A DNA stretch of 64,000 bases from positions 1-64,000 of the forward strand of contig JADIMI010000061.1 in assembly GCA_017694845.1 (NCBI GenBank), read 5' to 3'. The notes under the pieces are model-generated. The model did no database searches and was not told the DNA's origin. It saw nothing but the letters and a program-made list of their open reading frames with translations. Shown in pieces: positions 55 to 19,365 of this stretch. This DNA comes from Candidatus Cryptobacteroides intestinavium (lineage in GTDB: Bacteria; Bacteroidota; Bacteroidia; Bacteroidales; UBA932). The position numbers and the translations under genes are program-made. Each line of letters opens with the position of its first letter. Position 1 is the stretch's first letter.

Positions 55-3000
55 ATGGCAAACGAGAAAAAATTTATCACTTGTGACGGTAACTACGCAG
101 CTGCCCACATCGCTTATCTTTTCAGCGAGCACGCTGCGATCTACCCTATCACACCGTCGTCGACTATGGCAGAATATGTCGATGAGTGGGCAGCTCAGGG
201 AAAGAAGAATCTCTTCGGAGAGACTGTCAAGGTTACCGAAATGCAGAGTGAAGGAGGAGCGGCCGGTGCTGTGCACGGTTCTCTCCAGGCAGGAGCCCTT
301 ACTACCACATTCACGGCATCCCAGGGTCTGCTCCTGATGATTCCTAATATGTACAAGATTGCAGGAGAGATGCTTCCTACAGTATTCCACGTATCTGCAC
401 GTGCTCTTGCATCACACGCGCTCTCCATCTTCGGAGACCATCAGGATGTAATGGCCTGCCGCCAGACCGGATTCGCAATGCTGGCTTCCGCTTCTGTACA
501 GGAGGCCCTGGATATGGCAGCTGTCGCTCATCTGTCCACCATCAAGTCAAGCATTCCGTTCATCCACTTCTTCGATGGCTTCCGCACCTCGCACGAGATC
601 CAGAAGATCGAACTTATCGATGAGGACAAGCTCAGGGAGATGATAAGCACCAAGTCACTTGCAAGGTTCAGGGCAAAAGCCCTCAATCCGGATGCCCCTG
701 TGACAAGAGGTACAGCCCAGAACGGAGACGTATATTTCCAGGCACGCGAAGCCTGCAACGAATACTACGAGGCAGTGCCTGACATCGTTGCAAGATATAT
801 GGGCGAGATCAGCGAGGCTACCGGAAGGGACTACCGTCCGTTCGACTATTATGGAGCCCCGGATGCAGAGAACATTATCATAGCAATGGGATCTGTCACA
901 GAGACCATCAAGGAGACGATAGACCATCTTGCCACACAGGGGAAGAAGGTGGGACTGATCGTAGTCCGTCTCTACAGGCCGTTCTCCGCAAAATACTTTA
1001 TGAAAGTCCTTCCTAAGAGTGTCAAGAGAATAGCTGTGCTTGACAGGACCAAGGAACCCGGCGCTCTCGGAGAGCCGCTCTATCTCGATGTAAAGGCTCT
1101 CTTCCAGGGTGTCGAGAACGCCCCTCTGGTAATCGGAGGACGCTACGGCCTTTCATCAAAGGACACTTCTCCTGCACAGATCGTTGCAGTCTATGAGAAT
1201 CTTGAGCTTGCAGAACCGAAGAACGGCTTCACAATCGGCATCGTGGATGATGTGACATTCAAGTCACTCCCTGTCAAGGAGGAGATCTCCATCGTGAAAC
1301 CGGGCACTACAGAGTGCAAGTTCTACGGACTCGGGTCAGATGGCACAGTGGGTGCCAACAAGAACACCATCAAGATCATCGGTGACCATACAAGCAAATA
1401 CTGCCAGGGTTATTTCGACTACGATTCCAAGAAATCAGGCGGATACACATGCTCCCACCTCCGTTTCGGAGACCAGCCGATCAAGGCGCCATACCTTGTA
1501 TCTACTCCGGACTTCGTAGCCTGCCACGTACCTTCATATCTCCATAAATACGATGTGCTCAAAGGTATCAAGCAGAACGGAACCCTCCTGCTCAACAGCA
1601 TCTGGGATGAGGAGGAGACCCTCAGGAGAATCCCTGACTATGTAAAATCAGTCATCGGGAAGAAGAACATATCTCTCTATATCATAAATGCCACCAAGAT
1701 CGCTGCCGAGATAGGTCTCGGAGGAAGGACCAACACCATCCTCCAGTCCGCGTTCTTCAAGATAACCGGCATCATTCCTTACGAGGATGCAGTCACCTAT
1801 ATGAAGAAGGCTATCGACAAGAGCTACGGCAAGAAGGGAGAGAACGTAGTCAAGATGAACTATGCCGCTGTGGACAGGGGCGGAGAATACATCAAGGTGA
1901 ATGTCCCTGCCGAATGGAAAGAGATCACAGGCAAGTTCGAGAATCCTAACAAGGACAGGCTCGCTCCGGAATTCGTGAAGCAGATAGCAGATGTTGTGAA
2001 CGCACAGTGCGGAGACCAGCTCCCTGTAAGCGCATTCAAGGATGCAGCCGATGGCACAATCCCTGACGGGACCGCAGCATACGAGAAGCGCGGTGTCGCA
2101 GTGTACGTCCCTGAATGGAAGGCGGAGAACTGTATACAGTGCAACACGTGCGCATTTGTCTGCCCTCACGCTGCAATCCGTCCGTTCCTTATGACAGCAG
2201 AAGAGGCTGCCTCCGCTCCGGCAGGTATCAAGAAAGCACAGGGCAAGGCTGTATTCAAGGACTACACGTTCACAATGCAGGTATCTCCTGCCGACTGTAC
2301 AGGATGCGGCAACTGCGCAGACGTATGTCCTGCAAAGGAGAAGGCTCTCGTCATGGTACTTGCAGACACCCAGGAGGCAGAGCAGACCAACTTCAACTGG
2401 CTGCACTCCAACATCGGATACAAGGACACCGTGCAGAACAAGTTCCAGAATGTGAAGAACGCACAGTTCTCACAGCCTCTGTTCGAGTTCTCCGGCGCAT
2501 GTGCAGGCTGCGGTGAGACTCCGTACATCAAGACCATCACCCAGCTCTTCGGTGACCATATGATGATAGCGAACGCCACAGGCTGCTCATCTATCTACGG
2601 AGCATCCTTCCCTGCCTCACCGTACTGCACCAACGCAAACAGACACGGACCGGCATGGGCCAACTCGCTGTTCGAGGACAACGCGGAATACGGGCTCGGA
2701 ATGAAACTCGGTTCAGACAGGGCACGCGCCACAGTCGCCAGACTTATGGAACAGGGTCTCGCCTGCAGCTGCTGCTCTGACGAGATGAAGGCTCTCTTCA
2801 CGAAATGGCTTGAAAACCGCAACGATGCGAAAGTGACCCGTGAAGTGGCCGATGCCCTCGTTCCTCTTATGGAAGAGTGCAGCTGCGACACCTGCAAGGC
2901 ACTGCTCGAATACAGGCACTTCATTCCTTCCCGCAGCCAGTGGGTATTCGGAGGTGACGGCTGGGCATACGATATCGGATACGGCGGACTCGACCACGTC

Positions 3001-13636: not shown

Positions 13637-14707
13637 TCAGGCTGCAGAGACTCTCGAGGCTATGTATGAGCCTACCGCCGACGTGCCGTGGCTGCTGCCC
13701 GGAATTATATCCGGAGTACAGATACCGTTGCCGACAGCATCATCGCACGCGGCTCTGACCGCATCCGCCTCCGGCTTCATACCGAAGGCATCCTCCAGCA
13801 TCATTGCAGCCGAGAGGATAGTGGCTACAGGATTGGCTATGTCCTTGCCCGCCCCTTGAGGGAAAGAACCGTGGATAGGTTCGAACAGGCTCTTCCCCGA
13901 ACCGAATGACGCAGACGGGAGCAGGCCTATCGAGCCGTTTATGACTCCCGAGACATCGCTTAGTATATCTCCGAACATATTCTCGGTCAGAATGACATCG
14001 AACGACTTCGGATCTGAAACCATCTTCATGGCGGCATTGTCCACATACAGACAGTCCAGGGCTATGTCGGGAAAAGAGGTTTTCTGCATAGCTGTCACCA
14101 CTTCCCTCCATAGACGCGATGTCGCGAGCACATTTGCCTTGTCCACAAGGGTGACCCGCCCTCTCCGACGTCTTGCATATCCGAATGCTGTTTCCGCGAC
14201 CCGTCTTATCTCCCCGGCGGAATACACACAAGTGTCGAACGCCCTGTCTCCTGCCTCGCTACGACCCCTCGGCTCACCGAAATATATTCCGCCGGTAAGT
14301 TCCCTCACCACGACAAAATCACTTCCTTCCACGATATCATTCTTTAGAGGGGAAGCATCCAGGAGACTGGCGTACGGTCTGACCGGACGGATATTCGCAT
14401 AAAGCCCGAGTGACTTCCTCATTTTCAGAAGCCCCTGTTCCGGCCTGACCTTCGCGGATGGATCGCTGTCATATCTCGGATCCCCTATCGCACCGAACAG
14501 GATGGCATCCGATTCCATACAGATCCGGTGGGTAGTATCCGGATACGGCTCCCCGCAGCTGTCGATCGCTGCAGCTCCGATGTCTGCATATCTGTAAATG
14601 AATTCATGCGAATACCTTTCCGCGACTGCATCAAGCACCTTCACCGCCTGAGATATTATTTCCGGGCCTATTCCGTCTCCCGGGAGCACTGCTATCGTCT
14701 TTTTCAT
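13637..14707 (-). CDS. leuB: 3-isopropylmalate dehydrogenase
   Basis: 356 residues, family length. It oxidises and decarboxylates 3-isopropylmalate with NAD+ in leucine synthesis. It starts MKKTIAVLPGDGIGPEIISQAV, the family dinucleotide-dehydrogenase start. Further motifs are LTGGIYFGEPRGR, VDKANVLATSRLWR and GLLPSASFG...LFEPIHGSFP. It is the last gene of the leuACDB operon, about 38 bp after leuD, and is followed by a terminator. Confidence 0.97.
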   Translation of the reverse strand: MKKTIAVLPGDGIGPEIISQAVKVLDAVAERYSHEFIYRYADIGAAAIDSCGEPYPDTTHRICMESDAILFGAIGDPRYDSDPSAKVRPEQGLLKMRKSLGLYANIRPVRPYASLLDASPLKNDIVEGSDFVVVRELTGGIYFGEPRGRSEAGDRAFDTCVYSAGEIRRVAETAFGYARRRRGRVTLVDKANVLATSRLWREVVTAMQKTSFPDIALDCLYVDNAAMKMVSDPKSFDVILTENMFGDILSDVSGVINGSIGLLPSASFGSGKSLFEPIHGSFPQGAGKDIANPVATILSAAMMLEDAFGMKPEADAVRAACDDAVGNGICTPDIIPGSSHGTSAVGSYIASRVSAA

Positions 14708-14745: not shown

Positions 14746-15360
14746 CTACCGGTGTCTCTCCTCATATTCGACAATTCTGTCCTTATGCGCCAGAAGGTAG
14801 TCGATATCCGAATACCCCTTGAGCAGGCACTCCTTCTTGTATCCGTTTATGCTGAACCGCTCCGTCCCTGCTCCTTCTGCCGAAATTGTCTGGGCAGGCA
14901 GATCAATGTCCACCGCAAGCGTATGGTCAGCCTCCATTGCCGCCATCAGCGATGCAAGGAAATCGCTGCTTACCTGTACCGGCAGCAAAGCGTTGTTAAG
15001 GGCGTTGTTCCTGAATATGTCGGCGAACGAGGATGACACTACAGCCATAAAACCGGCATCCGCTATCGCCCAGGCGGCATGCTCACGGCTGGAGCCGCAG
15101 CCGAAATTGTCTCCGGCCACAAGTATGCATCTCCCGGAGGATCCGCCGGCCTCCTTTTCCGGACAGCACAGCTGCCGGTCTATGATATTGTTCCGGACCG
15201 GGCTGCCATCCGCGGCATACCTCCAGTCGTAGAAAAGCTTCTTCCCGAACCCTTCCCGCGAGGTTGTCTTGAGAAACCGCGCCGGGATTATCTGGTCAGT
15301 GTCGATATTGGCTGTCGGCACAAGGACAGCCGGAGAATGTATTGTCACTATTTTCCGCAT
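14746..15360 (-). CDS. leuD: 3-isopropylmalate dehydratase small subunit
   Basis: 204 residues, the swivelling domain that pairs with LeuC to isomerise 2- to 3-isopropylmalate. Motifs: NIDTDQIIPARFLKTT near the N-terminus, GDNFGCGSSREHAAWAIADAGF and SSSFADIFRNNALNN. The ATG follows the leuC stop after one base (TGA-T-ATG), so translation is probably coupled, which suits a 1:1 heterodimer. Confidence 0.97.
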   Translation of the reverse strand: MRKIVTIHSPAVLVPTANIDTDQIIPARFLKTTSREGFGKKLFYDWRYAADGSPVRNNIIDRQLCCPEKEAGGSSGRCILVAGDNFGCGSSREHAAWAIADAGFMAVVSSSFADIFRNNALNNALLPVQVSSDFLASLMAAMEADHTLAVDIDLPAQTISAEGAGTERFSINGYKKECLLKGYSDIDYLLAHKDRIVEYEERHR

Positions 15361-15361
15361 A

Positions 15362-16795
15362 TCATTCAGTCTTATGGTCTATTTCTCTTCCTGGATCTTC
15401 CGCGGCGTCCATAATGACAGGAAGGGAGATCCGGCCTGTCACGGCAGCCTCCGCCGCTACAAGAGGGCCTGCAAGGATCGTCCTTGCACCGTACCCCTGC
15501 CGGCCTTCGAAATTACGGTTGGACGTAGAGACGGCATATTTACCCTCGGGTATCTTGTCCGCATTCATCGCCAGGCACGCAGAACAGCCCGGCTGCCTCA
15601 GTTCAAATCCTGCCGATCTAAGGATTTCACCTATCCCCTCCTCCTCGATCATCTTCTCTACCTGTTTAGACCCGGGCACCAGCCATACCGTGACCCCATC
15701 AGCCTTTCTTCTGCCCTTGATGGCGGATGCGAAGGCCCTGAAATCCTCTATGCGGCCGTTGGTGCAGCTTCCGAGAAAGACATAGTCAATACCGAAACCT
15801 TCCAGTCTCTGCCCCCTGCTGAACCCCATATACGACAGGGCCTTGTCGAAACTGGCGTCATCGCACCCGACGGCAGAATCCGGTATGGCGGAATCCACCG
15901 GCATCCCCATCCCGGGATTGGTCCCGTATGTAATCATAGGCGGTATGTCGGCCGCATCGAACCTGTATTCCTTGTCGAAGACAGCATCTTCATCTGTATA
16001 GAGCCGTCTCCACTTCTCCACACATATATCGAATTCCTCTCCGGATGGAGCGAATCGACGGCCTTCAATATACCGGAACGTCGTCTCATCAGGGGCGACA
16101 AGGCCGCCTTTCGCACCCATCTCTATACTCATATTGCAGACAGTCATTCTGCCTTCCATACTCATATTGCGGAACACCTCGCCAGCATATTCCACAAAAC
16201 ATCCTGTACATCCTCCCGTACCGAGCCGCGAAATTATATAGAGGATGACATCTTTCGGAGTCACTCCCTTGCGCAGCTTCCCATCGACGGTTATCCTCGC
16301 CTGCCGGGGCCTGGCCTGCATAAGGCACTGCGTGGCGAACACCATCTCCACCTCGCTTGTCCCAATGCCGAAAGCGATGTTGCCGAACGCTCCGTGCGTG
16401 GCGGTGTGGCTGTCTCCGCACACCACAGTCTGGCCGCACAGGACAATCCCCTGCTCCGGACCCATCACGTGAACTATTCCGTTGCCGGGATCGCCGAGCG
16501 GGAAATAACGGATACCGTTGGCGGCAGTGTTTCCCGCAAGGGCGGCCACAGCCTCCGCAGATGCAGGGTCCTCTATCGGTCTGTCCTGATGCAGAGTAGG
16601 GGTATTATGGTCACACGTCGCAAACGTACGTTCCGGACGGAACACCTTCATTCCCTTGTCCTTCAATGCGTTGAAAGCCTGGGGAGAAGTCACCTCGTGA
16701 ATAAGGTGACGGTCAATGTAAAGCACATCGGGGCCATCAGGTATCTCCATGACCATATGGCTGTCCCATATCTTGTCAAACAGCGTCTGTCCCAT
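15362..16795 (-). CDS. leuC: 3-isopropylmalate dehydratase large subunit
   Basis: 477 residues from [15 protein letters not shown], which matches the LeuC N-terminus (compare xxKTLYxKLWDxH). The ORF-track start nine codons upstream would overlap leuA and is unlikely. It is an aconitase-superfamily protein with a 4Fe-4S cluster; ligand cysteines are in FLGSCTNGR and in [11 protein letters not shown]. Other motifs are [13 protein letters not shown] and GMKGG-type [10 protein letters not shown]. The start lies 4 bp after the leuA stop. A 557-aa antisense ORF over this gene is a shadow. Confidence 0.97.
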
Positions 16796-16799
16796 AATG

Positions 16800-18296
16800 T
16801 CAGAGAATCTTGGATATTGCATTCACGTAGGCCTCGACGGAAGCCGTCACGATATCCGTGTTGGCCGAGAATCCGTAATAGATGTTCCCCCTGTTCTCTA
16901 TCTGAATATGTACCTTCCCGACATCATCCGTGCCTCTGGTAATAGCCTGAACAAGGAACTCCTCCAGAGTTATCTTTCTGTGCACCAGACTTTTCACAGC
17001 CTGGAACGCAGCATCTATAGGGCCGTTGCCGCTTGAAGTGGCCGTACATTCCTCCCCATCTATGACCAGCTTGACTGTCGCCATCGGGACAGCGTTCTTT
17101 CCGCAGACCACCTGCAGATATTTCAGCCGTATCTTCTGGGCGATCTTGTCCTGGGTGACACCGGCGAGCATCAGGAGGTCGGAATCATTGATCTCCTTCT
17201 TCGCATCAGCCAGCTGGAGGAACTTCTGATAGGATGCATCCAGCTCCTCTTTGCTCATCTCTATGCCCAGCCTCTGGAAATGATGCTTGAGGGCGGCCCT
17301 TCCGCTGCGCGCCGTCAGTTCTATAGTGGAATCGTTCACTCCTACATCCGCCGGGTCAATGATCTCATAGCTCTCCCTGTTCTTCAGCACCCCATCCTGA
17401 TGTATTCCTGAAGAATGGGCGAAGGCGTTACGTCCCACGATAGCCTTGTTCGGCTGGACAGGCATACGCATAAGAGTGGAGACAGAATGGGAGGCCTTGT
17501 TGAACATCCTGGACACGATATCCGTATATACAGGTATGTCCTTGCGGCATTTCACGGCCATCACCACCTCTTCCATGGCAGTGTTGCCGGCCCTCTCGCC
17601 TACACCGTTGACAGTCACCTCGACCTGACGGGCTCCGTTCATCACCCCGGCAAGGGTATTTGCCGTAGCCATACCGAGATCATTGTGGCAATGGGTGGAG
17701 ATTATGGCCTTGTCTATGTTGGGGACATTGTCGACCAGATACTTTATCTTGGCTCCGTACTCTTCCGGAAGACAGTAACCGGTTGTGTCCGGAATATTCA
17801 CCACTGTCGCCCCGGCCGCTATCACAGCCTCGACCACCCTTGCAAGGTACTCGTTCTCCGTCCTGCCGGCATCTTCTGCATAGAACTCCACATCATCCAC
17901 ATATTTCCTGGCATATTTCACCGCCGCGACCGCCCGCTGCAGAATCTCTTCCCTGTTTGAGTTGAACTTGTATCTTATATGATAGTCCGAAGTGCCTATC
18001 CCGGTATGGATCCTCGGCCGGCGCGCAAAATGCAGGGCATCGGCCGCCACATCGATATCCTTCTCCACCGCACGCGTCAGGGCGCAGATCGTGGATTCGG
18101 TGACAATCTTCGAAATCTCTACTATGGACTTGAAATCGCCCGGACTTGAAACGGGGAATCCGCACTCGATTATGTCCACCTTCATACTTTCAAGCAACTT
18201 TGCAAGTTCGATCTTCTCGATAGTGTTGAGCTGACACCCGGGGACCTGTTCCCCATCCCTCAACGTGGTGTCGAATACATAAAGCTTCTGATCCAT
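16800..18296 (-). CDS. leuA: 2-isopropylmalate synthase
   Basis: 498 residues. It condenses acetyl-CoA with 2-oxoisovalerate, the first committed step to leucine. The HMGL-type TIM barrel begins [16 protein letters not shown] and contains [16 protein letters not shown]. The last about 130 residues form the LeuA allosteric domain ([30 protein letters not shown]) that normally binds leucine. Control is therefore twofold: predicted feedback inhibition, and transcription attenuation through the leader directly upstream, whose terminator ends 10 nt before the ATG. First gene of leuACDB. Confidence 0.96.
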
Positions 18297-18305
18297 ATCT
18301 TATAC

Positions 18306-18338
18306 AAAAAATGCCCTCCAGATGGACTCTGGAGGGCG
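18306..18338 (-). terminator. leu attenuator terminator
   Basis: On the minus strand GCCCTCCAGA-GTCCA-TCTGGAGGGC is a perfect 10-bp GC-rich stem with a 5-nt loop, followed by ATTTTTTG. It sits between the leader peptide and leuA, where no gene end would need a terminator. Confidence 0.9.
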
Positions 18339-18403
18339 GTGTTCATTCATATATTCCTATATGTGCAGACGGTACTGCTATGCACCTCTCACCCCTGGAG
18401 TCC
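18324..18403 (-). promoter_or_regulatory. leu antiterminator pairing
   Basis: GGACTCCAGGGG at the end of the leader-peptide coding region (18392-18403) is complementary to CCCTCCAGAGTCC (18324-18336), the 5' arm and loop of the terminator, with a small internal bulge. The two structures are mutually exclusive, the standard layout of ribosome-mediated attenuation. Confidence 0.75.
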
Positions 18404-18470
18404 TTTCAGCAAGATTCCATAGCAACAGAGATAGTAGTGAAAGCTGTCCGCGCATAATCATATCATTCAT
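18378..18470 (-). CDS. leuL: leu operon leader peptide
   Basis: A 30-residue ORF, MNDMIMRGQLSLLSLLLWNLAERTPGVRGA, too short for the ORF track. Seven of the eleven residues 10-20 are leucine, three of them encoded by CTA. It lies between a good promoter and a terminator just before leuA. This is the expected design of a leucine-sensing leader: ribosomes stall at the Leu codons when charged tRNA-Leu is scarce, freeing the antiterminator. I did not see a Shine-Dalgarno, which is normal for this phylum. Confidence 0.85.
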   Translation of the reverse strand: MNDMIMRGQLSLLSLLLWNLAERTPGVRGA

Positions 18471-18531
18471 TTTCAGTCTCCGGACATACTGCAATCCGGC
18501 AGAACCGGGCCGTCCGGAAGAGAACCGGCAA

Positions 18532-18562
18532 CAAATTTATGAATTAAAAATATAAAAAGCAA
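18532..18562 (-). promoter_or_regulatory. leu operon promoter
   Basis: On the minus strand TTG, a 20-nt spacer, then TAAATTTG. The predicted RNA start near 18525 gives a leader of about 230 nt that contains the leader peptide and attenuator. Confidence 0.8.
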
Positions 18563-18593: not shown

Positions 18594-19268
18594 TCATACC
18601 GGACGGTATGCCTTCAGCTCCTTTTCAAGCGACCTGCTGACCGGATATCCGGAACGCGCGGTCAGAGGGAAAGGATAAGTACGCACTGTCTTTCCGCGTA
18701 CAATCTCCACTGTCGCGAAATAGTCGGCACACAGATCTTCCAGAAGACGATGAAACCCGGGACCGTGGTCATGATGACGGAGATGGCAGAGCTCGTGCAG
18801 CATCACATAGTCCCTCAGGTGTTCAGGCACCTGCATCAGCCTGAGGTTGAGATTGATATTGTCCTTTGTCGAGCAGCTGCCCCAGTTGGATCTGTTGTTC
18901 TTGATCGCCAGACGGCCGTATACAAAGCCGTATCTTGCCGCAATGGAAGCAAGCCTCTCCGGAAGATATCGCCTCGCTTCACGGCGCAGGGCCTCCGTCA
19001 TTGCCGGATCGGGCCCGGCCGGAGGTACAGATACCGCCTTCTGCCTGGCCATCACCGACAACACCCACTGTCTCTTCGACAGCAGAAACATAACACCTGC
19101 CTCATAAGGCACATAATAAGGTACAGTCACGACAACGCCCCGCACCGGGTGGACCCTTATCGACACCCGCCTGCATCTCCTGCTCCTGCGCAGCATTATG
19201 TCCCCTATCTCGCTGTCTCTGTATATTTTTCCATCCATTTCCAGTTCCGTTTTCTCCGGTCTGTCCAT
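18594..19268 (-). CDS. YgjP-type metal-dependent protein (PF01863, DUF45)
   Basis: About 224 residues from MDRPEKTELEMDGK. The ORF-track start at 19358 lies upstream of the predicted RNA start, so it is rejected; MDGKIY (19238) is also possible. The zincin motif HELCHLRHHDHGPGFHRLL near the C-terminus, with RSNWGSCSTKDNINLNLRLMQVP before it, is typical of the YgjP/SprT-like family. Members are annotated as M48-like peptidases or UTP pyrophosphatase; the substrate here is unknown. It is divergent from the GH3 gene and is the nearest gene upstream of the leu leader. Confidence 0.85.
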   Translation of the reverse strand: MDRPEKTELEMDGKIYRDSEIGDIMLRRSRRCRRVSIRVHPVRGVVVTVPYYVPYEAGVMFLLSKRQWVLSVMARQKAVSVPPAGPDPAMTEALRREARRYLPERLASIAARYGFVYGRLAIKNNRSNWGSCSTKDNINLNLRLMQVPEHLRDYVMLHELCHLRHHDHGPGFHRLLEDLCADYFATVEIVRGKTVRTYPFPLTARSGYPVSRSLEKELKAYRPV

Positions 19269-19334
19269 ATCACCGCACGTCCGTAGCGTACACTCCGACG
19301 GCTCCCACCAGGGCCGGCACAGCCGTTCAGCAGA

Positions 19335-19365
19335 CAAAATTAAGAAGTGTATGCGCATTTACAAA
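19335..19365 (-). promoter_or_regulatory. Promoter of the YgjP-like gene
   Basis: On the minus strand TTTG, 19 nt, TAATTTTG. It is a full match to the Bacteroidota promoter and places the RNA start near 19328. Confidence 0.7.

Follow-up and report, generated by a model that had tools for sequence, protein, structure and literature searches.

Attenuators of the proteobacterial leu, ilv, his, trp and phe operons combine a run of regulatory codons, including the rare CTA, with four pairing segments and a terminator just ahead of the first gene, and in the known examples the antiterminator is usually held to form first. The proteobacterial Leu leader is the Rfam family RF00512. The Bacteroid-trp motif lies ahead of trp genes and contains Trp codons and a terminator-like hairpin. 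It is listed in Rfam (RF01692) as a Bacteroidetes cis-regulatory motif (PMC2864571). In Bacteroides thetaiotaomicron, small open reading frames (ORFs) reminiscent of leader peptides have been described (PMC7366714), and for Flavobacterium psychrophilum 'strong clues' of attenuation ahead of amino-acid operons were reported in a paper whose main text names neither the operons nor their sequences (PMC9723704). A leaderless attenuator leader is known from Sinorhizobium meliloti, where the 5' end of the trpL RNA is the leader ATG (PMC7298713). In 2010, Lopatovskaya and colleagues surveyed attenuation comparatively (cited in PMC4833913), and their survey may already cover some of the operons treated here.

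The window, a stretch of 64,000 nucleotides from Candidatus Cryptobacteroides intestinavium, contains the operon leuA-leuC-leuD-leuB on the minus strand (18296 to 13637), with all four genes scoring above their NCBIfam cut-offs (Table 1). Among named relatives, the closest LeuA, 96% identical, is from a metagenome bin of an uncultured Bacteroidales bacterium. The genome of the window (G000; 89 contigs, 89% complete) has no second LeuA-type gene. A gap of 297 bases separates leuA from a YgjP-like metallopeptidase gene (18594-19358) upstream in the same direction, and holds a promoter, a leader ORF and a terminator. The initial annotation had placed a promoter, a 30-codon leader peptide with seven Leu in eleven residues (three CTA), a complementary antiterminator and a perfect 10-bp terminator with a T6 tail in this order ahead of leuA, and every one of these parts was confirmed. 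With a Leu-rich ORF, a terminator ahead of the first gene, an alternative antiterminator in the folding model and compensating changes in the pairing arms, the region is, with high confidence, a classical ribosome-mediated transcription attenuator of leuACDB.

The locus shares with the proteobacterial attenuators the codon run including CTA, the four segments and the position of the terminator, but differs in lacking an Rfam match and in having a Bacteroidota promoter, and the leaders as a group show no excess of Shine-Dalgarno (SD) sequences. With the F. psychrophilum leaders it has in common the phylum, the association with amino-acid biosynthesis operons and a short ORF in a structured 5' region, whereas the lineage within the phylum is a different one. 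An Rfam gathering scan of the window yielded only Bacteroidales_small_SRP (RF04183; 33242-33348, plus strand, 112 bits), with no match to the Leu leader, the T-box or Bacteroid-trp, the last of which also differs in using Trp rather than Leu codons. A permissive scan of ten relatives and of the loci of the same genome gave no leader family.

Table 1. Features of the leu operon and its leader region, and further leaders of the same genome (positions are those of the window unless a contig is given)
Feature	Position	Strand	Basis or remark
leuA, 2-isopropylmalate synthase	16800..18296	-	NCBIfam TIGR00973, 661 bits (cut-off 598.7)
leuC	15362..16822	-	NCBIfam TIGR00170, 621 bits (cut-off 560)
leuD	14746..15360	-	NCBIfam TIGR00171, 176 bits (cut-off 116)
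leuB	13637..14707	-	NCBIfam TIGR00169, 456 bits (cut-off 353)
-33 promoter element TTGC (consensus TTTG)	18559..18562	-	sequence; consensus from PMC7366714
-7 promoter element TAAATTTG (TAnnTTTG)	18532..18539	-	sequence; consensus from PMC7366714
Leader peptide ORF, 30 codons, MNDMIMRGQLSLLSLLLWNLAERTPGVRGA	18378..18470	-	ORF reading
Control codons 10-20: CTT TCA CTA CTA TCT CTG TTG CTA TGG AAT CTT	18411..18443	-	sequence; CTA is rare in window genes
Segment 1 (TGGAATCTT), codons 18-20; predicted to pair with segment 2 when ribosome-free	18411..18419	-	RNA fold
Segment 2 (AGGACTCCAGGGG); predicted partner of segment 1, or of segment 3 as antiterminator	18392..18404	-	RNA fold
Segment 3 (GCCCTCCAGAGTCC), terminator 5' arm and part of loop	18324..18337	-	pairing analysis
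Segment 4, terminator 3' arm (18322-18313), then A and T6 tail (18312-18306)	18306..18322	-	terminator search
His leader MTRRFIRHHHHDTATEW ahead of hisG (L287)	G000:C22, ~1195-1306	-	with terminator and complementary antiterminator
Phe/Tyr leader MINGFRFSFFYFYSYSQKRV ahead of pheA (L346)	G000:C52, 1332-1465		with terminator
Ile/Val leader MNFNSLSLNGLIASTIIIAVVVISVIIIG ahead of ilvD (L288)	G000:C38, 1276-1450		terminator-like hairpin

The two promoter elements, separated by a spacer of 19 nt, match the Bacteroidota consensus TTTG / TAnnTTTG (PMC7366714), and transcription would be expected to start at about 18525-18529, near 18527. A sigma-70 promoter scan did not detect the leu promoter, which was expected, such a scan being uninformative for Bacteroidota. 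The -7 box lies 61 nt ahead of the first leader ATG, so that the leu leader of the window does not count as leaderless; its predicted 5' untranslated region (UTR) of about 55-60 nt is long compared with most relatives. A promoter box at most 60 nt from the leader ATG was found in 79 of 96 leaders, as against 12% in shuffles.

Regarding the leader peptide, the seven Leu codons lie within codons 10-20 (CTT CTA CTA CTG TTG CTA CTT). CTA accounts for three of these seven; across six window genes it makes up 4 of 210 Leu codons, and TTG is equally infrequent there (4/210). Seven Leu in 12 residues occur in no other of the 712 ATG-started ORFs of 10-45 amino acids in the 64-kb window. Homologues in the same genus, MYGQLSLSALLLWN... 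and MSGQLSLLCLLLWN..., start at what is codon 6 of the window's leader (ATG 18455); because these relatives begin there, the true start may be 18455, besides 18470 or 18461. A four-codon ORF (ATG TCC GGA GAC TGA; 18487-18473, minus strand) has its stop 2 nt ahead of the first leader ATG, and reinitiation from it onto the leader is conceivable.

The terminator (18337-18313) has the form GCCCTCCAGA-GTCCA-TCTGGAGGGC with a perfect 10-bp stem, followed by ATTTTTT, and its tail ends 9 bases ahead of the leuA start. Predicted folding of the entire leader pairs segment 1 with AGGACTCCA (segment 2, codons 23-25), and the antiterminator sequence GGACTC...GGGG (18403-18392) is complementary to the 5' arm of the terminator together with its loop. 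For the nascent RNA, folded through the end of its terminator loop, a ribosome footprint was moved along codon by codon. In this model the mean probability that the 5' arm is sequestered is about 0.7 for A-site positions at codons 9-20 (0.69 at codons 11-20) and 0.54-0.69 up to codon 24, and the arm is free from codon 25 to the stop (0.03-0.15). As modelled, this profile matches the geometry of classical attenuators. The arm is in part sequestered in shuffled leaders too (0.60 vs 0.77), and the antiterminator duplex of the window, with a z score of -1.9, is not extreme alone. When the full-length RNA was folded at equilibrium the terminator won at every ribosome position (Pterm 1.00), so that only the nascent-RNA profile discriminates, and the antiterminator would have to form ahead of the terminator, as the switch requires.

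We infer from these parts that the leader is translated, that the ribosome stalls on it and that transcription terminates at the hairpin in vivo. With RNA polymerase starting near 18527, a ribosome would begin to translate the leader. A shortage of charged tRNA-Leu would make it pause at the Leu codons within codons 10-20, which include three of the rare CTA, where it would cover segment 1; segment 2 would then pair with segment 3, no terminator would form and transcription would enter leuA. With plentiful leucine, the ribosome would reach the stop codon and either cover segment 2 or leave segments 1 and 2 paired, and with segment 2 occupied, segments 3 and 4 would form the terminator. The leader thus very probably lets the ribosome sense a shortage of leucine and switch on the leu genes.

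For comparison, leuA upstream regions were gathered from the family, the order, the phylum and named genomes (276 distinct regions) and searched for an ATG-started ORF of 10-45 codons with at least seven Leu/Ile/Val in 12 residues and an intrinsic terminator within 90 nt. Such a leader with its terminator occurred in 93 of the 276 regions, against 0.05 expected from dinucleotide shuffles; 19 of the 93 were from the family of the window and 74 from elsewhere in the order. Judged by these counts, the placement of a leader ORF and terminator ahead of leuA is not due to chance. Outside the order the leader was found in none of 27 leuA upstream regions, which is not evidence of absence, as leuA there is often not the first gene.

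The pairing is conserved as well. The antiterminator duplex exceeds that of shuffled sequence with a mean z score of -2.7 over 102 leaders, 74 of which lie below -2. In the genus of the window, segments 2 and 3 vary in sequence yet stay complementary in all six members (e.g., GGACTC/GAGTCC in the window and GAAACTC/GAGTTTC in G108). In 15 leaders of the Bacteroides/Prevotella type, segment 2 is GGAAGTGAG and encodes the peptide residues Gly-Ser-Glu. Here 96.9% of the antiterminator is paired, with two pairs changed on both sides, and 96.3% of the terminator, with three, these double changes being few per alignment and the aligned sequences related. Shifting the partner by 1-3 columns abolishes the pairing in the same 15 leaders. 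The initial annotation had named Leu codons and pairing arms as the features to compare in relatives; both proved to be conserved, with arms that change together. Two loci with leuA 67-68% identical to that of the window come from bins labelled Lentisphaeria/Lentisphaerae (L159 and L169); L169 is placed among Bacteroidales in the LeuA tree, and both contigs are probably misbinned or mislabelled.

Three further operons of the same genome, headed by hisG, pheA and ilvD, have leaders (Table 1), every one accompanied by a terminator-like hairpin and by a complementary segment. The hisG terminator reads GGCTTACC-ACTCC-GGTAAGCC-TTTTTT, with GAGTGGTAGCC complementary to its arm, and that of pheA GGCTGTCCGG...CCGGACGGCC-TTTTTT. 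The hairpin of ilvD (GTCGCTTGCG...CGCAGGCGAC, then TTCTTTTT) has 10 bp and a large loop and adjoins the gene. Because four operons in one incomplete genome have such leaders, the sequences suggest that peptide-leader attenuation is the standard solution in this organism. No leader was seen ahead of the homoserine dehydrogenase gene, and the assembly, though containing hisG, pheA, ilvD and leuA, gave no match to the chorismate-binding domain of TrpE/PabB.

The orientation of the YgjP-like gene, which ends about 256 nt ahead of the hairpin and points the same way, would fit an ordinary terminator of that gene, with a Leu-rich ORF present by chance and the leuA promoter located further down. A TAnnTTTG promoter sits between the upstream gene and the leader, in every close relative the ORF overlaps the sequence that can pair with the terminator arm, and the recurrence of leader and terminator in 93 regions described above argues against coincidence; this explanation is extremely unlikely. 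A leader that acts by translational coupling, Rho access or mRNA stability, with a less important hairpin, would agree with several relatives in which a Leu-rich ORF is present and a terminator was not found (e.g., L017, L022, L080 and L081), but in the window the terminator is perfect with a T6 tail, and the antiterminator pairs specifically with the terminator's 5' arm, so that we consider such a route very unlikely.

Riboswitches and T-boxes also use antiterminator/terminator switches ahead of amino-acid operons, and a leucine-binding riboswitch or T-box with an incidental ORF could therefore be envisaged. Against it stand the absence of an Rfam leader family match, the observation that a Leu or Leu/Ile codon run plus complementarity is conserved rather than a fixed fold, and the different control codons of the leu, his, phe and ilv leaders within one genome, which make it the least probable of the alternatives weighed here.

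Regarding the amino acids to which the ribosome-mediated attenuators would respond, the leaders in most of the order contain Ile and Leu together (e.g., MKNTSIILGIIILSLIIRC and MNQAFIHILLCGIIILLAKFSGSEYCA), and those in the family of the window contain mostly Leu. CimA opens an isoleucine route that uses LeuCDB. Many relatives with Ile and Leu leaders have the operon leuA-leuC-leuD-X-leuB, in which X, read as a fragment of 279 residues, is matched best by the NCBIfam model NF042433 for the (R)-citramalate synthase CimA (363 bits across half of the protein), the cut-off of 950 applying to the whole protein and X being a best match, not a confirmed member. In 54 Bacteroidales loci (e.g., L321 and L311), leuD is followed by a second LeuA-type gene that is CimA-like and usually lies ahead of leuB.

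The control stretch contained three or more Ile in 51 of the 54 loci with the cimA-like gene, versus 5 of 26 without it (Mann-Whitney test, 1e-9, uncorrected for kinship). Exceptions to the link are L130, L282, L004, L007 and L008 and, in the opposite direction, L280, L162 and L240. The cimA-like gene changes state seven times on the LeuA tree; apart from the family of the window, four lineages without it are also Leu-biased (L079/L080, L177/L265, L269 and L169), and two are not (L130 and L282). A tree-aware test of independent pairs had four pairs on well-supported branches, too few, and was not significant. We offer the hypothesis, strong in counts and based on few independent events, that the control codons track the operon, with Ile and Leu where a CimA-like gene is present and mostly Leu alone where it is absent. 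The leader of the window is of the Leu-only kind, and its sensor is leucine-specific, probably because the operon makes only leucine.

SD-like strings (GGAG, GAGG or AGGA) occur 5-20 nt ahead of 5 of 95 leader ATGs, with 5.7 expected from shuffles. The expectation of the initial annotation that the leader would need to be initiated without an SD thus agrees with the chance level of the group, but not with the window's own leader, which is one of the five (GGAG at -11 to -8 of the first ATG). The lack of an excess fits the report that Bacteroidia ribosomes fail at recognising SD sequences (PMC9976891).

In the sister genus g12, the -7 box lies 7-8 nt ahead of the ATG in 13 of 13 leaders (L007-L013, L018-L021, L028 and L041; chance 0.6% each), whereas the distance is 10-30 nt in 62 of 83 leaders outside that genus. 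This spacing implies that transcription starts roughly 0-6 nt from the ATG, so that the leader-peptide mRNAs should be leaderless throughout g12. The pheA leader RNA of the window's genome is probably leaderless too, because its ATG follows the TATCTTTG box after 8 nt (TATCTTTG-TCGATGTT-ATG). The predicted g12 leu and pheA leaders would resemble trpL of S. meliloti in this respect, with a different phylum and amino acid; the leu leader of the window, with its longer 5' UTR, is unlike trpL. Elsewhere in the phylum leaderless mRNAs are rare: about 3.7% of 5' UTRs in B. thetaiotaomicron are under 10 nt (PMC7366714), and leaderless mRNAs are given as 5.5% in F. psychrophilum (PMC9723704).

The mechanism is classical, and the attenuator proposed in the initial annotation is supported, with the adjustment that attenuation has been reported in the phylum before (PMC9723704; RF01692). 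The link between control codons and cimA is new here and is the most useful new point; if true, it is a simple rule that predicts what an attenuator senses. Specialists might find this codon rule and the leaderless versions surprising.

The comparison shows that Bacteroidales, among them Bacteroides, Phocaeicola and Prevotella of the gut, commonly control their leucine genes by ribosome-sensing attenuation, and it provides leaders that are suited to direct testing. SD sequences are not recognised by the ribosomes of Bacteroidota (PMC9976891), and the leaders therefore offer a direct readout of how SD-free initiation keeps pace with RNA polymerase. Tentatively, they may form an order-wide and so far unlisted family of branched-chain attenuators, in which the codons follow the operon product (Ile and Leu with cimA, Leu without), the ribosomes ignore SD sequences and the leaders of one genus are leaderless. 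If so, translation start and transcription would be in immediate contact in a phylum in which their coupling has hardly been studied.
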